A DNA stretch of 64,000 nt, from positions 3,658,001 through 3,722,000 of the forward strand of contig NZ_CP042997.1 in NCBI RefSeq assembly GCF_008087625.1, written 5' to 3'. The notes under the pieces are model-generated. The model was not told the origin of the DNA. It saw nothing but the letters and a program-made list of their open reading frames with translations, and ran no database searches. The position numbers and the translations under genes are program-made. Of the stretch, positions 4,490 through 12,803 are shown piece by piece. Numbering within the stretch: position 1 is the first letter of the stretch; each line of letters begins with the position of its first letter. This DNA is from Aquisphaera giovannonii. GTDB taxonomy: Bacteria; Planctomycetota; Planctomycetia; Isosphaerales; Isosphaeraceae.

Positions 4490-5197
4490 ATGAACAACAT
4501 TACGATCGAGGTCTGGGACGCCACCGGCAACAAGAAGCAGCTCGTGGAGCTGCCGGCGGACGCGCCGATCAACCGCGTGATCGCGGTGCTGGTGGACCGG
4601 ATGAACCTGCCGCGATACAGCCCCGACGGCCAGTTGATGAGCTACAAGTTCCACCACAAGGCGAGCGGCCGGCAGCTCCTCGACGACCAGACCCTCGCCT
4701 CCGCGGACGTCCACCAGGGGGACATCCTGCGGCTCCAGCCCGAGATCACCGCCGGGCGGGGGGCCTGTTCCATGGGCCCCGGGGCGATGGCGGGTGAGGG
4801 GGAGGGGCAGAAGCCCTGCCCGTACTGCGGCGAGCTGGTCCTCGCCGTGGCCAGGAAGTGCAAGTACTGCAAGGAATACCTTGACCCCGAGCTGCGCCGG
4901 GCCGAGCTCCGGGAGCAGGGGCTCGTGGGATTCGTACCGGTCAATACGCCCGCCTCCGCGATCGCGGCCGGCTACCTGGGGCTCCTGTCGCTCATCCCGA
5001 TCTTCGCGCCCTTCGCGCTCCTCTTCGGCATCATCGCCCTGCGGACGATCCGCCGGAACCCGGGGATGGGCGGGCGATTCCGGGCCTACCTGGGGATCGT
5101 GGTGGGCTCTCTGATGAGCCTCCTCCTCGCCTTCATCGTCGTCGTGCTGATCGTCGAGTCGATCCGGAAGGCGCAGGGCAGGCGGCCGGGATTCTGA
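4490..5197 (+). CDS. YukD/ubiquitin-like domain fused to zinc ribbon and two TM helices
   Basis: First gene of the nine-gene locus. Residues 1-85 resemble the YukD/EsaB class of ubiquitin-like beta-grasp domains: an ITIEVWDATG first strand, a helix around residues 26-39, and a late ADVHQGDILRLQPE strand. A linker leads to a zinc ribbon with Cys110, 113, 124 and 127 (CPYC and CKYC). Two hydrophobic segments follow at about 155-184 and 199-224, in a DUF4190-like arrangement. The Ubl is therefore predicted to be held on the membrane, facing the cytoplasm. It does not end in a free Gly-Gly, so it either needs proteolytic release or acts as a non-conjugated scaffold. ATG 4490 was chosen because it starts exactly at the beta-grasp strand; no strong ribosome-binding site is visible. 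The E1 gene follows after 15 bases. The Ubl assignment comes from sequence pattern only. Confidence 0.75.
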   Translation: MNNITIEVWDATGNKKQLVELPADAPINRVIAVLVDRMNLPRYSPDGQLMSYKFHHKASGRQLLDDQTLASADVHQGDILRLQPEITAGRGACSMGPGAMAGEGEGQKPCPYCGELVLAVARKCKYCKEYLDPELRRAELREQGLVGFVPVNTPASAIAAGYLGLLSLIPIFAPFALLFGIIALRTIRRNPGMGGRFRAYLGIVVGSLMSLLLAFIVVVLIVESIRKAQGRRPGF

Positions 5198-5212
5198 CCG
5201 GCCCGGCCGGCC

Positions 5213-6436
5213 ATGACGCACCTGCGGGATGGGGGAGTCACCTTGAGCGACATCCTGCGGATCTCGGGGGGCTCCGACGAGGACGATCGATTCTCCCGGT
5301 TCCGGCTGATCGGCTGGTGGGACCAGGCGCGGCTGGCCGCGGCGAAGGTCCTCGTCATCGGCGCCGGGGCCCTGGGGAACGAGATCGTCAAGAACCTCGC
5401 GCTCCTGGGCGTGGGCCGGGTCGTCGTCGCGGACCTGGACCGGGTGGAGAACTCGAACCTGTCCCGGTCGGTCCTCTTCCGCGAGTCGGACCGCGGCCGG
5501 GCGAAGGCGGAGGTCGCCGCGGGCCGGGCGGCGGACATCTACCCGGGTATCCGGGCCCGGCCGTTCGTCGGCAACGTCGTGTACGACCTGGGGCAGGGGA
5601 TCTACCGCTGGGCCGACGTCATCCTGGGCGGGCTGGACAACCGGGAGGCGCGCGTCGCCATCAACCACGCCGCGGCGAGGGCCGGGAAGATCTGGATCGA
5701 CGGCGCCATCGAGCGGCTCGACGGCGTCGCCCGCGTGTTCGACCCGGCCGTCGGCCCCTGCTACGAATGCACGATGGGGGTCAACGACTGGAAGATGCTC
5801 GAGGCCCGCCGGAGCTGCGCCCTGCTCTCGAGGGGTGAGATGGAGCTGGGCAAAGTCCCGACGACGCCCACGACCGCCTCGATCGTCGCCGGGATCCAGG
5901 TCCAGGAGGCCGTGAAACTGCTGCACGGGCTGGAGGTGCTCTCGGGCCAGGGCTACGTCTTCGACGGGACGCACCACCAGAGTTATGTCGTGAGCTACAC
6001 CCGCAAGGAGGACTGCCCCTCCCACGAGCCCTACGAGGCCGTGGAGGAGCTGGCCGAGGGTGCGGGGACGGTCCTGCTGGGCGACCTCCTGGAACGGGCC
6101 CGCTCGGACCTCGGGGCGGGGGCCGTGCTCGAGCTGAGCCGGGACCTCCTCAAGTCGCTGACCTGCGACCGATGCGGGACGACGGAGTCGAGGTTCGGCT
6201 CGCTCGGCCGCGTGACCGAGGCCGAGGGGCGATGCCCGGGCTGCGGCCTCGCCCGGACGCCGGCGTTCTTCCACGCGATCGACGGCGAGGACCCGGCCCT
6301 ATTGGGCCTGACGCCCGCGGCGATCGGCGTGCCCCCCTGGGACGTCGTCACGGGCCGGGCGGGATGGCGGCAACGGCACTACGAGCTCGCGGCGGACCGG
6401 GGTACGGTCCTCGGCCCGCTCGCCGACGCGTCATGA
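5213..6436 (+). CDS. ThiF/MoeB/E1-type ubiquitin-like activating enzyme
   Basis: Predicted to adenylate the C-terminus of a ubiquitin-like protein with ATP and possibly form a thioester. The Rossmann ATP-binding loop GAGALGNE is at residues 50-57. The E1 signature DLDRVENSNLSR (about 74-85) carries the acidic, Asn and Arg residues used in adenylation, and GGLDNREAR is at 139-147. Zinc ligands appear to be Cys183/Cys186 (CYEC) and Cys268/His271 (CPSH, where MoeB has CPVC). Cys202, in RRSCALL ahead of the TTPTTAS crossover, is the candidate catalytic cysteine. After the E1 domain comes an extra zinc ribbon (Cys318, 321, 341, 344) and a C-terminal tail. There is a single E1 domain. A TTG at 5243 preceded by GGGGGAG is a good alternative start, trimming 10 residues. 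The E1 assignment is strong; the partner is inferred from the neighbouring Ubl, E2 and JAMM genes. Confidence 0.9.
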   Translation: MTHLRDGGVTLSDILRISGGSDEDDRFSRFRLIGWWDQARLAAAKVLVIGAGALGNEIVKNLALLGVGRVVVADLDRVENSNLSRSVLFRESDRGRAKAEVAAGRAADIYPGIRARPFVGNVVYDLGQGIYRWADVILGGLDNREARVAINHAAARAGKIWIDGAIERLDGVARVFDPAVGPCYECTMGVNDWKMLEARRSCALLSRGEMELGKVPTTPTTASIVAGIQVQEAVKLLHGLEVLSGQGYVFDGTHHQSYVVSYTRKEDCPSHEPYEAVEELAEGAGTVLLGDLLERARSDLGAGAVLELSRDLLKSLTCDRCGTTESRFGSLGRVTEAEGRCPGCGLARTPAFFHAIDGEDPALLGLTPAAIGVPPWDVVTGRAGWRQRHYELAADRGTVLGPLADAS

Positions 6437-6473
6437 TCCGCGGCGGATGGCGTACGAGAGAGCGAGGTGATCC

Positions 6474-7652
6474 ATGACCCAGGCGCGAACCGAGGACCTC
6501 CCGGACGTCCGCATCCTCGCCAGCCAGGACCTCGCGGAGGAGCGGTTCCCGGGCGGCCGCAACGACCCATTCCGCGTCTTCCTGTCGCCGGATGTCCACG
6601 CCGCGATCTGGAAGCACGCGACCGAGACGACCGAGGTGGAGATCTGCGGCGTCCTCGTCGGGACATGGCTCCGCGACGACGCCGGCCCGTTCGTCAAGGT
6701 GACGGAGTCCATCCGCGGCGAGGGGGCCGAGACGAAGTTCGCCGAGGTCACGTTCACGCACCAGACCTGGTCGAAGATCAACGCCGAGATGGATTCCAAG
6801 TTCGGCCACCTCCAGATCGTCGGCTGGTATCACACCCACCCGGACTTCGGCATCTTCCTGTCGGATCGCGACCTGTTCATCCAGCAGCACTTCTTCTCGG
6901 GCCCGGGGCAGATCGCGCTCGTCGTCGATCCGGTCCGCAAGATCGAGGGCGTCTTCGCCTGGCGCGACGGCAAGGCCGCGCTGACGGGCCACTACTGGGT
7001 CGGGGACCGGCTCATGGTCGGGGCGGACGGCCGGGATGCGCGCGATGACCGCGCCCGGCCGGCCGCGATGCGAGACGCCCGGCAAGCCGCGGCGGGCGCC
7101 GAGGCCGCGGCGAGGCCGGCGGAGGGCTCGCTCTTCTCCGGCATCAGCGGCCTGCTCCTGGCCATCCTCCTGCTGCTGCTGGGATACCTGCTGGGCGGGC
7201 TGAGGTCGGGGTGGGAGCGGCAGGCGATCATCGAGGGGACCGTGGCGCATTACGGGATCTGGAATGGGCTCCGTCCGGGGCTCTCGACCGACCTGGAGCG
7301 GCTCGGCCAGGACATGGCGGCCGCGGTCCGGCCGCTGGGGTCGCTCTCCCCCGAGAAGGAGCCGGACCGCAAGGCGCTGGCGGAGGCGAGAGAGCGGCTC
7401 GTCGCGCTGGTCGGGCGGACGGCAGAGATGCGGGTGAAGTACGGGCTGTCCGCCGACGAGGAGGCGGCGCTCCGGCGGCTGGTGGTGGACCGCATCGCCG
7501 AGGTCTCCGCGGGCCGGGCTGCACCCGCCGAGGCGCCCAGGGAGGCGACGCCGCCCCCGGCCGCCTCGTCGAAGACGGACGCGTCGCCCTCCCCCGGTGG
7601 CGATAAGGCCGCAGAGAAGGACAGGGCCCTTCCCGGGGGGGCACGTCCATGA
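6474..7652 (+). CDS. Membrane-anchored JAB/JAMM (MPN+) metallopeptidase
   Basis: Predicted zinc isopeptidase or Ubl-processing protease of the JAB1/MPN+ family, the class that includes Rpn11 and AMSH. All metal ligands are present: Glu56 in VEICGVLVG and the HTHPDFGIFLSDRD motif, giving His120, His122, Ser130 and Asp133 in exact H-x-H-x7-S-x2-D spacing. The catalytic domain (about 35-180) is followed by an alanine-rich linker, one strong hydrophobic helix at about 221-243, then an alpha-helical domain and a low-complexity Pro/Ala/Ser tail. The protease domain most likely faces the cytoplasm and is tethered to the membrane. GAGAGCGAGGTGATCC ahead of ATG 6474 supplies a ribosome-binding site. 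Lying between the E1 and FHA genes, it probably matures the Ubl or removes it from targets. Confidence 0.92.
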   Translation: MTQARTEDLPDVRILASQDLAEERFPGGRNDPFRVFLSPDVHAAIWKHATETTEVEICGVLVGTWLRDDAGPFVKVTESIRGEGAETKFAEVTFTHQTWSKINAEMDSKFGHLQIVGWYHTHPDFGIFLSDRDLFIQQHFFSGPGQIALVVDPVRKIEGVFAWRDGKAALTGHYWVGDRLMVGADGRDARDDRARPAAMRDARQAAAGAEAAARPAEGSLFSGISGLLLAILLLLLGYLLGGLRSGWERQAIIEGTVAHYGIWNGLRPGLSTDLERLGQDMAAAVRPLGSLSPEKEPDRKALAEARERLVALVGRTAEMRVKYGLSADEEAALRRLVVDRIAEVSAGRAAPAEAPREATPPPAASSKTDASPSPGGDKAAEKDRALPGGARP

Positions 7653-7712
7653 AATCATGGTCGAAGGTCGTCGAGGCTGGATGAGGCGAGAGGCGGTCCG
7701 ACGGAGGGGTGC

Positions 7713-8792
7713 ATGTCGAGTCCTTCATCTCCGGAGCCGTTGCGGCTCTCCTCGGCGGAGCTGTTCTCCCCGCAGGTCGAGTCTTACCTGGAGGAGCAGG
7801 CCGTCCTTTCCCGGGCAATGCCGGAGGTCGTGCCGCGGCCGTTCCTGATCCGCGTCCTGTATTCGAGCTACTTCTACCTGAGCCTGGCGAGCGGCCTGGG
7901 CGCCCTGGTCGGCTGGATGATCCTGGAGCCGTTCTTCGACGATAAGGAGGCCGCGAGAGAGGGCTTCCAGGTCGCCAATCTCCTCCTCTTCCCGGTCGTC
8001 CTGGGCTCGATCGGCCTGTTCCTGGGGGCCGCCGAGGGGATCATGTGCCGCAACCTCCAACGGGCGGCGATCTCCGCGGCGGTCGGCCTGGGGGTCGGCT
8101 TCGCGGGGGGACTCGTCGCGCTCATCGTGGCCTCGATCATGTTCATCGTGGTGCGGGTCATGATCGTGAATATGTTCCCGAAGGACGTTCACGAGGACGG
8201 GATGCCGACCGGCATGGCCCTGCTCATGCTGATGATGGGCCGGGCCTCCGCCTGGGCCGTGGCGGCGATCCCGGCGGGGATCGGCCAGGGGATCGCGCTC
8301 CGCGAGCGGAAGGTGGCGCTCAACGGCCTGCTCGGCGGGGTGCTCGGCGGGCTCCTGGGCGGGATCGTCTTCGACCCGATCAGCGTGGCCTTCACCGGCG
8401 CGGACGGCGAGGCGTGGCTGAGCCGGGGCATCGGCTTCACGATCATCGGGCTGATGGTGGGATTCTTCGTCGGGATCGTCGAGCAGTGGACGAAGACCGC
8501 CTGGCTGCTCATGAAGGCCGGCCCGCTGGCGGGCAAGCAGTTCGTGATCTTCCGCAACCCGATGGTCCTGGGGAGCTCGCCCAAGGCGGACGTCTACCTG
8601 TTCAAGGATGAGGCGATCGAGCCCCGGCACGCCCTGATCCACGACCGCGGCGGGCGGTTCGAGATCGAGGACATGGACTCGGCCGACGGGACCTACGTCA
8701 ACGGGATCCCGGTGAAGAAGCAGATCCTCAAGGCGGGCGACCAGATCGTCCTCGGGAAGACGGTCCTGGAGTTCGCCCTGCGCGAGGCGTGA
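7713..8792 (+). CDS. Polytopic membrane protein with C-terminal FHA domain
   Basis: The N-terminal two-thirds contain about six hydrophobic segments, several glycine-rich, spanning roughly residues 50-265. A forkhead-associated domain fills about 275-357. FHA core residues are visible: GSS at 287-289, the PRHALI segment with Arg305-His306, and SADGTYVNG ending at Asn330-Gly331. FHA domains bind phosphothreonine peptides, so this protein probably links the locus to Ser/Thr kinase signalling at the membrane. No kinase gene is in the window. The ATG has a CGGAGGGG ribosome-binding site a few bases upstream. The FHA call is strong; the membrane part matches no family I can name. Confidence 0.85.
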   Translation: MSSPSSPEPLRLSSAELFSPQVESYLEEQAVLSRAMPEVVPRPFLIRVLYSSYFYLSLASGLGALVGWMILEPFFDDKEAAREGFQVANLLLFPVVLGSIGLFLGAAEGIMCRNLQRAAISAAVGLGVGFAGGLVALIVASIMFIVVRVMIVNMFPKDVHEDGMPTGMALLMLMMGRASAWAVAAIPAGIGQGIALRERKVALNGLLGGVLGGLLGGIVFDPISVAFTGADGEAWLSRGIGFTIIGLMVGFFVGIVEQWTKTAWLLMKAGPLAGKQFVIFRNPMVLGSSPKADVYLFKDEAIEPRHALIHDRGGRFEIEDMDSADGTYVNGIPVKKQILKAGDQIVLGKTVLEFALREA

Positions 8793-8864
8793 TCAACCCG
8801 GCGGGCCGTCGCCCCGGGGCGGCGGCCGCCTGGGAATGCGGAGGGGAGAGGGGAGGAGCGGCCG

Positions 8865-9455
8865 ATGTCGATCTCGTTCGAGTGTCAGTCGTGCGGCAAG
8901 AAGCTCAAGGCGCCCGACAGCGCGGTCGGGAAGTCGTCGAAGTGCCCCCAGTGCGGGGCGAAGGTCACCTGCCCCGAGCCGATCTACGACGCCGAGGTGG
9001 CCGACGACGCCGAGGGTTTGGGCGGCGTCGCCTTCTCGGGCTCCAACGCGCTGGCGGACCTGGACGACGGCAGCCCGTACGCCCTCAAGGATCCCGACCC
9101 CTACGCTCCGCCGGCCGGCGACGCCGCGGAGGGGCCGCGGCGTCCCTGCCCGATGTGCGGCGAGATGATCCTGACGAGCGCCGCGAAGTGCCGCTTCTGC
9201 GGCGAGGTCTTCGACCCCAAGCTGAAGAAGAAGTCCAAGAAGAAGTACGGCGCCGACTCGGCGGACATGAGCGCCGGCGACTGGGTCGTCGCGCTGCTGT
9301 GCCCGGGGATCGGGTGCATCGCGGGCATCGTCTGGATGATCCAGGGCAAGCCGAAGGGGACCAAGATGTTCGGCATCTCCTTCGCGGTGAACGCCTTCTG
9401 GACCGTCGTCCAGATCTTGCTCAGGAGCCAGATGAACCCCCAGGGAGGGCCCTGA
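8865..9455 (+). CDS. Two-zinc-ribbon small membrane protein
   Basis: A 196-residue protein with two separate zinc ribbons. The first (Cys7, 10, 27, 30) has the FECQSCGKKLK...KCPQCG pattern. The second (Cys95, 98, 109, 112) has the pattern CPMCGEMILTSAAKCRFC, very close to ribbons in the first and sixth proteins of the locus. A Lys-rich stretch (KKKSKKK, 121-127) precedes two hydrophobic segments at about 140-160 and 168-187, placing the ribbons in the cytoplasm. GGGAGGAG lies just upstream of ATG 8865. No enzyme motif is visible; an adaptor or scaffold role within the ubiquitin-like pathway is an inference from position and shared domains. Confidence 0.75.
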   Translation: MSISFECQSCGKKLKAPDSAVGKSSKCPQCGAKVTCPEPIYDAEVADDAEGLGGVAFSGSNALADLDDGSPYALKDPDPYAPPAGDAAEGPRRPCPMCGEMILTSAAKCRFCGEVFDPKLKKKSKKKYGADSADMSAGDWVVALLCPGIGCIAGIVWMIQGKPKGTKMFGISFAVNAFWTVVQILLRSQMNPQGGP

Positions 9456-9470
9456 TCCGGGGCCGCCGCC

Positions 9471-10217
9471 ATGCCCGCCGTCGTCGCCTGCTCGTGTGGG
9501 GCCCGGATCCGAATCCCGGAAGGGGCGGAGGGCCGCGCCGTGCGCTGCCCGAAGTGCAAGGCCGTGATCCCCGCGTCCCAGCCCCAATCCTCGGCGGTCG
9601 GCGTCGGCGCCGGCGGGGAGGAGGCCCCGGGGCTCTCGATCCGGACGGTGGCGGCCGGAACCGCCGAGGCGGGCGGATCGTGCCCGATCTGCCAGGCGTC
9701 GATCGGCCCGGAGGACGCGGTCGTCGTGTGCCCGGCCTGCGCGCAGGTCCACCACCGCGAATGCTGGTCGGAGGTCGGCGGCTGCGGCACGTACGGGTGC
9801 AGCGAGGCCCCGAGGCTCGAGAAGGCGGCCCCGGCCGAGACGCCATTGACCGCCTGGGGCGACATGAAGCGGTGCCCGGCCTGCGGCGAGAAGATCAAGG
9901 CCATCGCCCTCCGCTGCCGATACTGCGGCGAGGATTTCCCCACGGTCGACCCGCTCTCCCTCCAGGACCTGCACGGCAAGGTCGCGCGCGACGAGGCGAC
10001 CGGGCAGGTCAAGACCTGGGTGGTCCTCGTCTTCATCCTCAGCCTGCTGGGCTTCCTGGCGCCCCTCATGCTGCTCGTCGCCTCGATCATGGCATGGAGG
10101 ATGCGCGACGCGATCGGCCGGGCCGGCCCGCTGTTCGTCGCCGTCGCGTATTCCTCGATCGCCGTCTCGGCCTTATATTCAATCTTGATCGGATTCTTCG
10201 TGCTGTTCAGCGGCTGA
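9471..10217 (+). CDS. Prokaryotic RING-like (treble clef) membrane protein, E3 candidate
   Basis: The central domain has the metal-ligand pattern of the prokaryotic RING finger family 1: Cys71, Cys74, Cys87, Cys90, His94/95, Cys98 followed by Trp, then Cys105 and Cys110 in GGCGTYGC. This can hold two zincs in a binuclear treble clef. It is flanked by an N-terminal ribbon (Cys7/9 and Cys26/29) and a second one (Cys135, 138, 149, 152) nearly identical to that of the preceding gene. Two membrane segments follow at about 182-206 and 220-246. In eukaryotes RING domains dock E2 enzymes, and the E2 gene lies two genes downstream, so an E3-like or E2-binding role is a reasonable inference. The start lies 15 bases after the previous stop. 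Confidence 0.8.
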   Translation: MPAVVACSCGARIRIPEGAEGRAVRCPKCKAVIPASQPQSSAVGVGAGGEEAPGLSIRTVAAGTAEAGGSCPICQASIGPEDAVVVCPACAQVHHRECWSEVGGCGTYGCSEAPRLEKAAPAETPLTAWGDMKRCPACGEKIKAIALRCRYCGEDFPTVDPLSLQDLHGKVARDEATGQVKTWVVLVFILSLLGFLAPLMLLVASIMAWRMRDAIGRAGPLFVAVAYSSIAVSALYSILIGFFVLFSG

Positions 10218-10232
10218 CGGAGGGGCGGGCGC

Positions 10233-11609
10233 GTGAGCTCGACGAGTGGGCGATCCCTGGTGGCCTGCCCTCGCGAGGTCGGCTCCCGCTGTCCATACTG
10301 CCCCGACGCGGTGGCCGTCGGCGACCTGATCATGGTCTGCCAGTCCTGCGGCACCGTCCACCACCGCGCCTGCTGGAACGGGCATGGCGGTTGCGGCGCC
10401 TACTCCTGCACGCCCGCCCGGCGCGAGGTCGACTCGCCGCGGGCGGGGGTGTTGACGATCTCCGCCGCCGACCTGGATCGGGCGGTGCCCCTCCCCGCGG
10501 CGCGGCCGCACTCGTACTCGGTCAACGGGGCGGCCTCGGGCGCGGGCCGCGGCGCGGCGGCCCCGACGTGGGAGAGGGCCGATCCCCGCCGGCTGAATCG
10601 CCTCGCCATGGCGTCCTTCGTCTGCGGCCTGGCCGGTATCCCGCTGTTCGGGCTCGTCACGGGCCTCGTCGCCATCGGCCTGGCCGCCTTCGCCCTCGCG
10701 GCGATCCGCGCCACGCCGCAGCGGGGGCTCTGGATGGCGATCTCCGGCATGATCCTCGGCATGGCGGACGTCGTGGGCTGGCTCCTGCTCATCTCCGCCT
10801 ACTTCGGCGGCGCCAGCGGGGCGACCGAGCTGAGGTTCGCGGAGAATCCCCCCGAGGTCTCCACGCTCGCGGACCTGGACCCGCCGATCCGCCGCGCCCT
10901 CTGCGCCAACGTGTTGATCGAGACCGGCGGCCTGCTCGGCAAGGCGATCGGCTCCGGCGTGATCCTCCAGATGCGCGACGGCCGCGCCCTGATCGTCACC
11001 AACCGCCACGTGGTGGACCACGGCTTCTCCGGCGGCGACAGCCCGCCGCCGGCCCCGGAGAGCCTGGGCGAGCTCACGATCCGGATGATCGGCCACCCCC
11101 CGGGCCATGGCCGCGTCGTCTGGCTGGCCCCGGCGCCGATCGACCTGGCCCTCGTCCAGGCCGAGGCGGCCGCCCCCGCGGAGGCGGCCCTCTTCCGGAA
11201 GGGGAGGCCGGCTCGCGTGGGCCAGCCGGTCTTCGCCGTCGGCAACCCGTACCGGCTCGGCTGGTCCCACACGCAGGGCGTCATCTCCCAGATGCGTTCC
11301 CAGCTCGCCGGACTCCGCCAGGTCCAGGTGATCCAGACCCAGGCGTCGATCAACCCGGGGAACAGCGGCGGCGGCCTCTACGACCGGGACGGCTACCTGC
11401 TGGGCATCAACACCTGGACGAGCGACAAGCGGATCAGCGAGGGGATCGGCTTCGCGATCGCGTTCGATTCCCTGCTGGCGCTCGACCCGCCGTTCCTGGA
11501 GAAGGAGGCGGGGAAGGCGGAGGCCGGCGGGGCGGGCGATCGGGCCCGTCCGGAATCGCGGAGTGAAACCCCCGGCGGCGAGGCCAAGCGAGGCGAGGTC
11601 AGGTCATGA
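10233..11609 (+). CDS. RING-like domain fused through TM helices to a trypsin-like serine protease
   Basis: The N-terminus carries the same RING-like treble clef as the preceding gene: Cys20, 23, 36, 39, His43/44, Cys47-Trp48, Cys54 and Cys59. Next come about three hydrophobic segments (roughly 122-192, DUF4190-like). The C-terminal half is a DegP/HtrA-type serine protease with the full triad: His259 in TNRHVVD, Asp304 in PIDLALV, and Ser378 in NPGNSGGGL. No PDZ domain follows. An odd number of helices would place the RING in the cytoplasm and the protease across the membrane; topology needs confirmation. It starts at GTG 10233 after GGAGGGGCG, and its stop overlaps the E2 start by four bases, so the two are translationally coupled. 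It may transmit a modification signal to proteolysis; that is inference. Confidence 0.85.
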   Translation: MSSTSGRSLVACPREVGSRCPYCPDAVAVGDLIMVCQSCGTVHHRACWNGHGGCGAYSCTPARREVDSPRAGVLTISAADLDRAVPLPAARPHSYSVNGAASGAGRGAAAPTWERADPRRLNRLAMASFVCGLAGIPLFGLVTGLVAIGLAAFALAAIRATPQRGLWMAISGMILGMADVVGWLLLISAYFGGASGATELRFAENPPEVSTLADLDPPIRRALCANVLIETGGLLGKAIGSGVILQMRDGRALIVTNRHVVDHGFSGGDSPPPAPESLGELTIRMIGHPPGHGRVVWLAPAPIDLALVQAEAAAPAEAALFRKGRPARVGQPVFAVGNPYRLGWSHTQGVISQMRSQLAGLRQVQVIQTQASINPGNSGGGLYDRDGYLLGINTWTSDKRISEGIGFAIAFDSLLALDPPFLEKEAGKAEAGGAGDRARPESRSETPGGEAKRGEVRS

Positions 11610-12328
11610 GCACGGTGCGGCTCCGGCGACTCCAGGCGGATTTCGAGAAGGTGAGCGACTACGTCCGTCGCCACCCGAGGCTCCAGCTGATCCAGACCGA
11701 CGGCACGCCGCCGGAGCGCTACCAGGTCGAGTTCCAGGTCAAGGGGCTCCGCCAGAAGGGGGACGAGCTGGCCGTCGTGGCGAGCCACATGGTCGAGGTG
11801 CTCCTCCCGCTGAGCTACCCGCGGATGCCGCCCCAGTGCCGCATGCTCACGCCGGTCTTCCACCCCAACATCGCCCCGCACGCCATCTGCATCGGCGACC
11901 ACTGGAGCCCCGGCGAGCCCCTCTGGTCGATCCTCGCGCGGATCGGCGAGATGATCGCCTACCAGAGCTACAACACGCGCAGCCCCCTCAACGGCGAGGC
12001 CGCCAAGTGGGTGGAGCAGCACAAGGACGACCTCCCCCTGGACCCGATCAGCCTCATGCCCGACGAGCCCCCCGGGCCGACGGCGGCGGCGGCGGCCGGG
12101 CCCGCGTCCGCGGCGTCCGCGCCGGCGACGGCCCTGGTGGCGGCGACGCCGCCCCCGCCCCCGGCCGCCGCGGTCCCCGCGCCGCCCGCCACGATGGCCT
12201 TCGCCTGCACGTCGTGCCGATCGATGCTCAAGATGCCGCGCGAGATGGGCGGCAAGCGCGTCCGATGCCCGCGCTGCCAGGCGATCATTCGCGCCCCGGG
12301 CGGGCCGGCGGAAGATTCCCATGGATGA
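11606..12328 (+). CDS. E2 ubiquitin-conjugating-like enzyme with C-terminal zinc ribbon
   Basis: Predicted to accept an activated Ubl from the E1 and pass it to a substrate. The UBC fold spans residues 1-140. The key region is YPRMPPQCRML, then HPNI at 86-89, then ICIGDHWSP with candidate catalytic Cys95. The later SPLNGEAAKW matches the PLN-x-x-AA motif of eukaryotic E2s. A Pro/Ala-rich linker leads to a zinc ribbon (Cys201, 204, 221, 224) similar to those in neighbouring proteins, ending in APGG plus seven residues. The start overlaps the stop of the RING-protease gene (ATGA), and the end overlaps the next gene by eight bases. The E2 call is strong because both the active-site region and the downstream helix motif are conserved. 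Confidence 0.9.
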   Translation: MSTVRLRRLQADFEKVSDYVRRHPRLQLIQTDGTPPERYQVEFQVKGLRQKGDELAVVASHMVEVLLPLSYPRMPPQCRMLTPVFHPNIAPHAICIGDHWSPGEPLWSILARIGEMIAYQSYNTRSPLNGEAAKWVEQHKDDLPLDPISLMPDEPPGPTAAAAAGPASAASAPATALVAATPPPPPAAAVPAPPATMAFACTSCRSMLKMPREMGGKRVRCPRCQAIIRAPGGPAEDSHG

Positions 12329-12803
12329 CGGCGACGAGGTGGCCGACGACCTCGACGAGGTGGCCGCCACGCGCGTCGCGGCCCGGCGGCATCGGGAGGT
12401 CCTGGTGGTCGCCGCGATTGCCCTCGCCCTTGCCTTCGCCCTCGACGTCGGCGACGACGACCGGGTCACGCCCCGGGGATGCCCCGGCATCCCGCTCCCC
12501 CCCACCTGCATGTCCCGATCTCTCTTCGGCGTGGATTGCCCCGGCTGCGGCTTGACCCGCTCGGTGATCCGCGCCTCGCGGGGCGACTGGTCGGGCTCCT
12601 GGCGGACGCACCACCTGGGCATCCTGTTCCTCGTCGTCCTGCTGATCCAGGTCCCCTATCGCCTGGCGGCCCTCCGCCGGCCCGCGAGGCCGATCGTACC
12701 GCCGCGATGGCAGGATGCCATGAGCTATGCACTGATCGCCCTGCTGATCGGCAACTGGCTGATCGGGCTCGCGGCGCGGGGGCCCGGCCCCGGCCTGCCT
12801 TGA
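12321..12803 (+). CDS. DUF2752 family small membrane protein
   Basis: A 160-residue protein with the DUF2752 signature: FGVDCPGCGLTRSVIRASRGDW, containing the CP-x-CG-x-TR motif. It has hydrophobic segments near residues 27-45, 97-115 and 134-152. The first residues are acidic. It overlaps the E2 gene by eight bases, so it is the last member of the operon-like run. The function of DUF2752 is unknown, and its genes occur in many settings in planctomycetes, so membership of the ubiquitin-like system rests only on the overlap. Confidence 0.75.
   Translation: MDDGDEVADDLDEVAATRVAARRHREVLVVAAIALALAFALDVGDDDRVTPRGCPGIPLPPTCMSRSLFGVDCPGCGLTRSVIRASRGDWSGSWRTHHLGILFLVVLLIQVPYRLAALRRPARPIVPPRWQDAMSYALIALLIGNWLIGLAARGPGPGLP

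Follow-up and report, generated by a model that had tools for sequence, protein, structure and literature searches.

Bacterial operons containing RING genes were reportedly described by Burroughs, Iyer and Aravind in 2011, who are said to have proposed RING E3 ligases and conjugated YukD-like ubiquitin-like modifiers (Ubls). Operons bringing together an activating enzyme (E1), a conjugating enzyme (E2), a JAB peptidase and a Ubl had been predicted in bacteria by Iyer in 2006, some of them with E2–E1 fusions or with E2s that have no histidine (PMC1779556). In the archaeon Caldiarchaeum subterraneum a modifier with a short C-terminal tail, an E1, an E2 and a small RING protein are encoded together, with an Rpn11/JAMM gene adjoining, and a nine-residue tail behind the Gly–Gly (GG) of archaeal pro-ubiquitin is removed by Rpn11 before activation (PMC5654768). 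The Bil system (BilABCD) has a Ubl, an E1, an E2 and a JAMM peptidase, BilA consisting of two Ubl domains (PMC11354881), and Bub operons combine a Ubl, an E1, an E2 and a specific protease (PMC12687455). Here we describe a nine-gene operon that encodes all of these kinds of part together with membrane, FHA and protease partners, at positions 4490–12803 on the plus strand of a 64,000-nucleotide stretch of the Aquisphaera giovannonii genome (hereafter the window).

Set beside these systems, the operon shares E1, E2, JAB and Ubl with those of 2006, and it shares with Caldiarchaeum the whole assembly of modifier, E1, E2, RING and JAMM; the tailed archaeal modifier also has its like among relatives of the window modifier. 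It differs from the archaeal operon in that its modifier has Ala–Gly (AG) and not GG, in having mostly membrane partners, in the addition of FHA, HtrA-like protease, zinc-ribbon and DUF2752 proteins, and in being bacterial. The four Bil parts are common to both, whereas the window has one 89-residue YukD-type Ubl with RING and FHA partners; no two-domain modifier was found, the E2 has no match in PADLOC, the JAMM protein matches generic JAB models only, and the sole Bil-named PADLOC match among the matches listed is that of the E1 to BilD (2.3e-8, residues 41–153). The Bub parts are likewise shared, a comparison made by description only. We make no claim to have been the first to discover operons of this type, since related operons are already predicted in print; in the literature searched, which mostly left out subscription journals, no title on the nine-gene form was found, and the point that is new to this analysis is the conserved QPEITAG tail of the relatives' Ubls. 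We consider it likely that the operon encodes a reversible, phospho-guided, membrane-anchored system for tagging proteins with a Ubl, and we hold with high confidence that Ubl conjugation takes place, while being less sure of the physiological role than of the explanation as a whole. An earlier note, made from the letters of the DNA alone, had regarded the locus as one distinct conjugation and deconjugation system; its unity is borne out by co-occurrence, gene order and the predicted E1 and E2 folds, but its distinctness stands only in part, as such operons were predicted in 2006. The features of the operon are as follows.

4490..5197, plus strand: gene A, YukD-type Ubl (residues 1–89, ending QPEITAG), then a zinc ribbon and a DUF4190-like segment with two transmembrane (TM) stretches (Pfam YukD, 1.3e-9)
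4736..4756, plus strand: codons of the conserved Ubl tail Q83-P-E-I-T-A-G89, from the alignment, with a predicted JAMM cut after G89
5213..6436, plus strand: gene B, adenylating enzyme of E1 type with C202; its zinc-containing C-terminal domain may be a ubiquitin-fold domain (Pfam ThiF, 3.2e-51)
6474..7652, plus strand: gene C, JAMM (Rpn11-like) peptidase with one TM stretch at 223–241 (Pfam JAB, 1.5e-15)
7713..8792, plus strand: gene D, about five TM stretches followed by a C-terminal FHA domain (Pfam FHA, 3.9e-14)
8865..9455, plus strand: gene E, two zinc ribbons and two TM stretches (Zn_Ribbon_1, 5.4e-6)
9471..10217, plus strand: gene F, zinc ribbon, C4HC3 RING-type finger (71–110), zinc ribbon and two TM stretches (Prok-RING_1, 8.8e-13)
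10233..11609, plus strand: gene G, C4HC3 RING-type finger (20–59), DUF4190 segment with two TM stretches and HtrA/trypsin-like protease (Prok-RING_1, 1.4e-10; Trypsin_2, 1.1e-20)
11606..12328, plus strand: gene H, E2 (HPN at 86–88, C95) with a C-terminal zinc ribbon (UQ_con, 1.4e-11)
12321..12803, plus strand: gene I, DUF2752 membrane protein with about three TM stretches (DUF2752, 3.1e-16)

All nine open reading frames (ORFs) were confirmed, and the uninterrupted run that had been reported, with gaps of 15–72 bases and two overlaps at its end, agrees with the coordinates (spacing from A to I of 15, 37, 60, 72, 15, 15, -4 and -8 bases). Chance ORFs in GC-rich DNA are ruled out by the Pfam scores and by the existence of relatives, and a scan of the operon for promoters and terminators gave nothing useful. 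Hydrophobic stretches of TM length occur in seven of the nine proteins and in neither E1 nor E2, as judged by a crude hydropathy count that was the sole topology method; to that extent the description of nearly all members as membrane-bound holds. By the same count the finger and the protease domain of protein G would lie on one side of the membrane, presumably the cytosol. The motifs read by the earlier note were also recovered: the JAMM ligand set is complete (E56, H120, H122, S130 and D133), the E2 has H86-P87-N88 and C95, and proteins F and G each present eight RING-like ligands within the fingers given above.

The case for conjugation begins with the E1 and E2. That both should fold as such in structure prediction had been set beforehand as a test, and both do so in AlphaFold2 models (predicted local distance difference test, pLDDT, 89.1 and predicted template modelling score, pTM, 0.87 for E1; 92.4 and 0.86 for E2). 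In VIA comparisons the E1 model aligns over residues 20–272 with MoeB (Z 29.4, 232 aligned residues, root mean square deviation, rmsd, 1.8) and, from 27–395, with residues 5–535 of the SUMO E1 chain SAE2 (9dqb_B; Z 28.1, 304 aligned, rmsd 3.5); the longer alignment suggests that the C-terminal part of the model resembles a ubiquitin-fold domain, the ranges giving end points only. The closest matches of the E1 profile are eukaryotic E1s (UBA7, UBA1, NAE, UBA6 and SAE2, 1.8e-39 to 2.6e-32), ahead of ThiF (5e-29) and MoeB (1.5e-26), the eukaryotic matches spanning a shorter stretch than those to MoeB and ThiF. For the E2 model all 50 Foldseek matches listed are E2 entries or complexes containing an E2, and VIA ranks UBE2S first (Z 13.8, 129 aligned, rmsd 2.6). 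By these models the E1 has an adenylation fold with a conserved cysteine, and the E2 an E2 fold with HPN and a catalytic cysteine, as in a ubiquitin-type cascade. E1 residues C202, K98, C183, C268 and H271 and E2 residues H86, P87, N88 and C95 are each invariant in 41 of 41 sequences, in alignments (A3 and A4) that left out E2 rows shorter than 120 and E1 rows shorter than 330 residues and, for A4, took in 40 of the 70 E1 references listed. C202 we take to be the catalytic cysteine, by its position as in MoeB-type E1s. In a mixed set of 85 E2s of the window type and of a second, compact type introduced below, HPN is kept in 85 and the cysteine in 80. Among the relatives, three E2-like genes that have no detected partners (L056, L060 and L061) keep HPN and lack the catalytic cysteine, resembling inactive UEV-type E2s. 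At another locus (L078, 7372–13271) two E2s, one of them lacking the cysteine, accompany two JAMM genes, an E1, a Ubl and a RING gene, and may form an active/inactive E2 pair.

The modifier makes up only residues 1–89 of the 235-residue protein A, the remainder, which the earlier note did not mention, being a zinc ribbon followed by a membrane segment like DUF4190 (2.2e-8, 34.2 bits, slightly below the Pfam cut-off of 35). Compared with the PDB, the Ubl profile gave a best E of 0.36, to a ubiquitin-like protein. QPEITAG are the last conserved residues in all 13 aligned Ubls of the window type (alignment A2), and PEITAG is present in all 31 relatives in which the pattern SPDGQ[LI]MS, which lies outside the tail, occurs, a count that rests on the best 80 relatives only; the other 49 of these 80 loci hold only a search pattern containing the tail and so give no proof of its conservation. 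Arg directly precedes the last eight residues in 78 of the 80 (exactly RLQPEITAG in 69). In 26 of the 80 loci the Ubl stops exactly at AG, and in the others it extends by 1–51 residues with no evident common sequence, one of these extended Ubls (L103) being truncated by a contig end. In a wider set that includes compact types AG is found in 32 of 33 Ubls, and of the 22 compact-type loci the 11 that match the tail pattern all have AG. The exception is a compact-cluster Ubl ending IIAA plus a tail in place of AG (L075, 15297–15596). As read from sequence, this tail pattern is that of a pro-modifier, and because the conserved AG stands either at the stop codon or ahead of a variable tail, the JAMM peptidase probably trims the modifier to a single C-terminal glycine.

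A fusion of Ubl and membrane segment as in the window was found in none of the 80 relative loci, in which the Ubl is a separate small protein. At L081, a sister locus, the Ubl and the membrane part are kept apart by a stop codon and a fresh ATG, and the junction in the window contains a run of six G, so that an insertion or deletion, or an assembly slip, is possible there. Either the fused protein is a precursor held at the membrane, or the six-G run has introduced an error.

The remaining partners are conserved at the residues on which their proposed activities would depend, in sets that for RING, JAMM, FHA and protease, as for the 85 E2s, mix the window type with compact types. The metal-site residues of the JAMM protein (E, HxH, S and D) are each kept in 107 or 108 of 108 sequences, and the closest solved chain to its profile is a '26S proteasome regulatory subunit N11-like protein' (6fjv, 4e-19), which we take to be the archaeal protein, with Rpn11 next. 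At each of three loci (L150, L164 and L166) three JAMM genes lie near one Ubl. The eight RING-type ligands are conserved in at least 122 of 123 sequences, which supplies the eight zinc ligands expected of the binuclear finger in RING E3s, with Prok-RING_1 above its cut-off for both F and G, and the C4HC3 order is that of prokaryotic RINGs according to a review (PMC11354881). E3 activity of these proteins is suggested by their context. The conserved G and H columns of the FHA domain are complete in 86 of 86 sequences, and in 13 of the 80 loci an FHA domain and a full RING pattern stand on one chain, a layout resembling that of RNF8 and CHFR, with the finger resting on the ligand pattern; ten of these records carry Phycisphaer- names, one is labelled Tepidisphaeraceae and two only Planctomycetota or Planctomycetes. 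These joined chains are the best reason for regarding protein D as a substrate adaptor. The protease triad of protein G (H259, D304 and S378) lies in columns that are complete in 45 of 45 sequences; by profile, 16 of 30 ORFs with a trypsin-like domain also hold a RING-type finger, and one further protease ORF (L121) has a finger by Pfam at 25.8 bits, below the cut-off of 29.1.

Relatives were gathered by an E2 search of 392 Planctomycetota genomes and by a search of named genomes with the Ubl alignment, from which the best 80 of 198 relatives were kept. Some of the 80 loci are the same DNA as loci in the Planctomycetota sample, so the two sets are not independent; the profile hidden Markov models were iterated on the same loci, so that their E-values are not independent tests; and most E2-query matches near 1e-4 cover the C-terminal zinc ribbon only and were not counted as E2s. 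The relatives carry the labels Planctomycetota, Acidobacteria, Holophagaceae, Riflebacteria, Sumerlaeota, Victivallales, Lentisphaeria, Kiritimatiellae, KSB1, Zipacnadia and two kinds of 'proteobacteria', most being metagenome bins in which single odd taxon labels may be wrong; one locus (L102) is that of Lacipirellula limnantheis. Gene order was counted in those 42 of the 80 loci that extend 9 kb or more beyond the Ubl on its downstream side, the other 38 being omitted: E1, JAMM, FHA and RING are each present in 40, E2 in 34, a trypsin-like protease in 20 and DUF2752 in 11. Six core parts occur together in 33 of the 42, and 30 of these 33 have them in the order of the window, an arrangement shared by Planctomycetota, Acidobacteria, Riflebacteria and further groups; in the five Acidobacteria/Terriglobia loci the protease is a separate gene ahead of the Ubl.

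Among 45 genomes of the family, full-length Ubl, E1 and E2 of the window type coincide in the same seven (G000, G004, G018, G030, G437, G438 and G439), with the Ubl on a different contig from E1 and E2 in G018 and G438. Across the phylum sample of 392 the Ubl was found in 14 genomes and the E1 in 13, all within those 14, at cut-offs of 1e-20 and 1e-110 chosen to exclude the compact type; the genome with a Ubl and no counted E1 (G387) is a bin of 61% completeness that has a fragment of an E1 where one of its contigs ends. The genomes are related, and these counts are not of independent events. Conserved order, for which the earlier note had proposed a survey, and co-occurrence are both observed. 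Two of the 80 loci (L091 and L092) carry an intact Ubl with PEITAG at its end and have neither E1 nor E2 in the neighbourhood. These are the contigs on which G438 and G018 hold their Ubl, and we rejected a different system as their explanation, since both genomes have window-type E1 and E2 on other contigs and rearrangement or broken assembly suffices. In G018 about 5 kb of other DNA separates the zinc-ribbon gene of the operon from its RING genes (L083, 10350–15709), and in G107 the E2 is near a contig end and has no partner except an FHA gene about 10 kb away.

The A. giovannonii genome holds a second, compact cluster in the order Ubl–E2–E1–JAMM at C1:1.066 Mb (L044; 9070–13253 of the piece C1:1056500-1076400 of G000). 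Its Ubl, E2 and E1 are 42%, 39% and 45% identical to those of the window; the Ubl ends PEVVAGRP, that is, AG followed by a two-residue tail. No parts besides these four were found in its 20 kb. The compact E1 type is present in 38 of the 45 family genomes, against seven for the window type. In some genomes the compact cluster adjoins a RING gene (L072), and the single RING genes of the family adjoin the compact cluster where positions were compared (for example in G014).

From these parts a mechanism may be proposed. The membrane-tethered JAMM peptidase would cut the Ubl precursor, which in the window is membrane-fused, after ...PEITAG to leave a single C-terminal glycine; the E1 would adenylate this glycine and take the Ubl onto C202, from which it would be handed to C95 of the E2. 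The membrane RING-type proteins F and G would then deliver the loaded E2 to targets, with the FHA protein D reading phosphothreonine and helping to choose them; the Ubl would be joined to target lysines, and JAMM could also remove it. In the window subtype the HtrA-like protease that shares a chain with RING G may cut tagged or misfolded membrane proteins. Beyond this, we put forward only tentatively, and with considerable doubt, that the operon runs a full, phosphorylation-guided E1–E2–RING–JAMM cascade with an Ala–Gly modifier, embedded in the inner membrane, that the RING–protease chain of this subtype is a minimal tag-and-cut device for quality control whose logic is like that of endoplasmic-reticulum-associated degradation, and that FHA–RING ligases occur across several phyla.

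A number of observations weigh against this account of the operon. At the modifier, the window tail is AG rather than GG and is internal rather than C-terminal. At the enzymes, protein B has no Pfam match to E1_UFD, and the cysteine is missing in five of 44 E2-like genes, three of them the partnerless genes described above. The RING profile finds only weak matches in the PDB, a mixture of PHD fingers, RINGs and zinc fingers of other kinds, and in the one FHA–RING protein put to Pfam (L118, E up to 0.001) FHA alone was called and the finger was not. A search by regular expression found no Ser/Thr kinase motif in the 80 loci and two ORFs with one in other loci (L069 and L074), and a kinase partner next door was set aside for this reason. 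The protease was not found in 22 of the 42 long loci and the E2 not in eight, some loci ending before the position of either; we therefore do not count the protease as core. Six of the 80 loci (L091, L092, L103, L135, L140 and L149) have a Ubl and no E1, in G220 (L049) the later half of the operon, with E2 and RINGs, is present while Ubl and E1 are missing, and G031 has the RING pair with no window-type E1 or E2 found. The last genome, a fragmentary bin, may carry the system in pieces; a 22-codon Ubl match in it runs into a contig end, and the idea that this match is a relic was withdrawn, as it is uninformative on loss.

The operon lies on the 10.37 Mb contig of a 10.5 Mb genome. Downstream are the gene for glucose-6-phosphate dehydrogenase (zwf) and then one for an outer-membrane efflux protein; upstream are a gene on the reverse strand that matches nothing in Pfam, one for a T2SSE (PilT-like) ATPase and one for a glycerophosphodiester phosphodiesterase (GDPD). 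In six of the seven family loci zwf adjoins the operon, and in the seventh (G004) it is on another contig. A congener (G002) keeps the flanks GDPD, PilT and DUF on one side and zwf, TolC and GH on the other, and between them has a deletion scar, a 44-codon, 93% identical remnant of the Ubl (L188, 6038–6170), and an unrelated-looking gene, so that the operon, or at least its Ubl, was ancestral at this site and then lost. In G016 the region upstream of zwf holds genes resembling E (45%) and I (39%) with the remainder absent (L190, 13196–14526), perhaps leftovers of partial loss. No relatives of the Ubl were found in viral contigs and none of the E2 in phages, and plasmids gave one cyanobacterial E2 match at 26%. 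Together with the zwf adjacency and the G002 relic, this led us to reject a recent mobile defence island and argues for an accessory, long-held system rather than a fresh arrival. In a tree the window type forms a supported group of 77 rows, separate from the compact types and spanning several phyla, eight duplicate E1 rows having been dropped and the long branches making deep joins unsafe; with a group of this span transfer and deep age are indistinguishable.

This history bears directly on the alternative that survives best, namely antiphage defence of the Bil, CBASS or Bub sort, in which phage or effector proteins would be tagged. According to a review, the Ubl operons so far described in bacteria appear to be directed mainly against phages (PMC12687455), and the patchy presence of the window operon (seven of 45 family genomes) would be in keeping with such a role. 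Among the PADLOC matches listed, the ThiF part of the E1 matches E1–E2 models (best 2.6e-15) besides BilD, the JAMM protein matches generic JAB models at 1.2e-5 and the protease part RT-Protease_XI at 8.2e-6. The E2, the FHA protein and the DUF2752 protein, however, have no PADLOC match at E up to 1, and the Ubl, zinc-ribbon and RING F proteins match only weak, unrelated models. Bub operons, which carry CapW or CapH with CapP in 219 of 544 cases and CapK with CapS in 59 of 544, are reported not to have been shown to protect (PMC13373217). The flanking genes tested here are metabolic-like, envelope-related or without a Pfam match. With the scarcity of viral, phage and plasmid relatives, the position beside zwf and the Ubl relic of G002 between the same flanks, an antiphage role of the operon has little support, and we regard it as unlikely.

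It is less probable still that the Ubl is joined to a membrane lipid in the manner of Atg8 and released by the membrane JAMM. The hydrophobic stretches in seven of the nine proteins, the MoeB-like fold of the E1 (MoeB being a homodimer) and the single C-terminal glycine, a feature known for Atg8 and UFM1, would all suit lipidation. Against it, the E2 is of the HPN type with protein-modifying E2s as its best profile matches, RING-type partners are present, and we know of no lipid-modifying signature.

A non-covalent role like that of YukD or EccD, with the Ubl built permanently into a membrane complex of type VII-like kind, seems very improbable: the Pfam YukD match, a weak EccD match (0.0019) and the fusion of the window Ubl to TM stretches point towards it, but the Ubls of relatives are separate proteins that end in AG or in variable tails and accompany E1, E2 and JAMM, and the Pfam matches listed include neither an FtsK-like ATPase nor a WXG100 substrate family, in a search confined to the nine proteins. 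A sulfur-carrier pathway like that of MoaD or ThiS with MoeB or ThiF, to which the E1 fold and its MoeB/ThiF similarity would lend themselves, is the least credible of all, given the HPN and cysteine kept in every aligned window-type E2, the RING-type and FHA proteins alongside, and the absence by Pfam of any rhodanese or cofactor gene among the nine.

If the tagging system proposed here is real, several phyla would carry a full, membrane-built cascade with a separate E1, an HPN-type E2, RING-type partners and an Rpn11-like JAMM, linked to the reading of phospho-signals and perhaps lying outside phage defence. It would offer a reconstitutable bacterial counterpart of the eukaryotic cascade with a modifier that works with Ala–Gly, and the parts list and the tail allow a clear biochemical test; trypsin would leave a defined remnant, LQPEITAG (+809.43 Da), which could be searched for in planctomycete proteomes. 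The finding also bears on the origin of the separate E1, E2 and E3 parts of eukaryotes.

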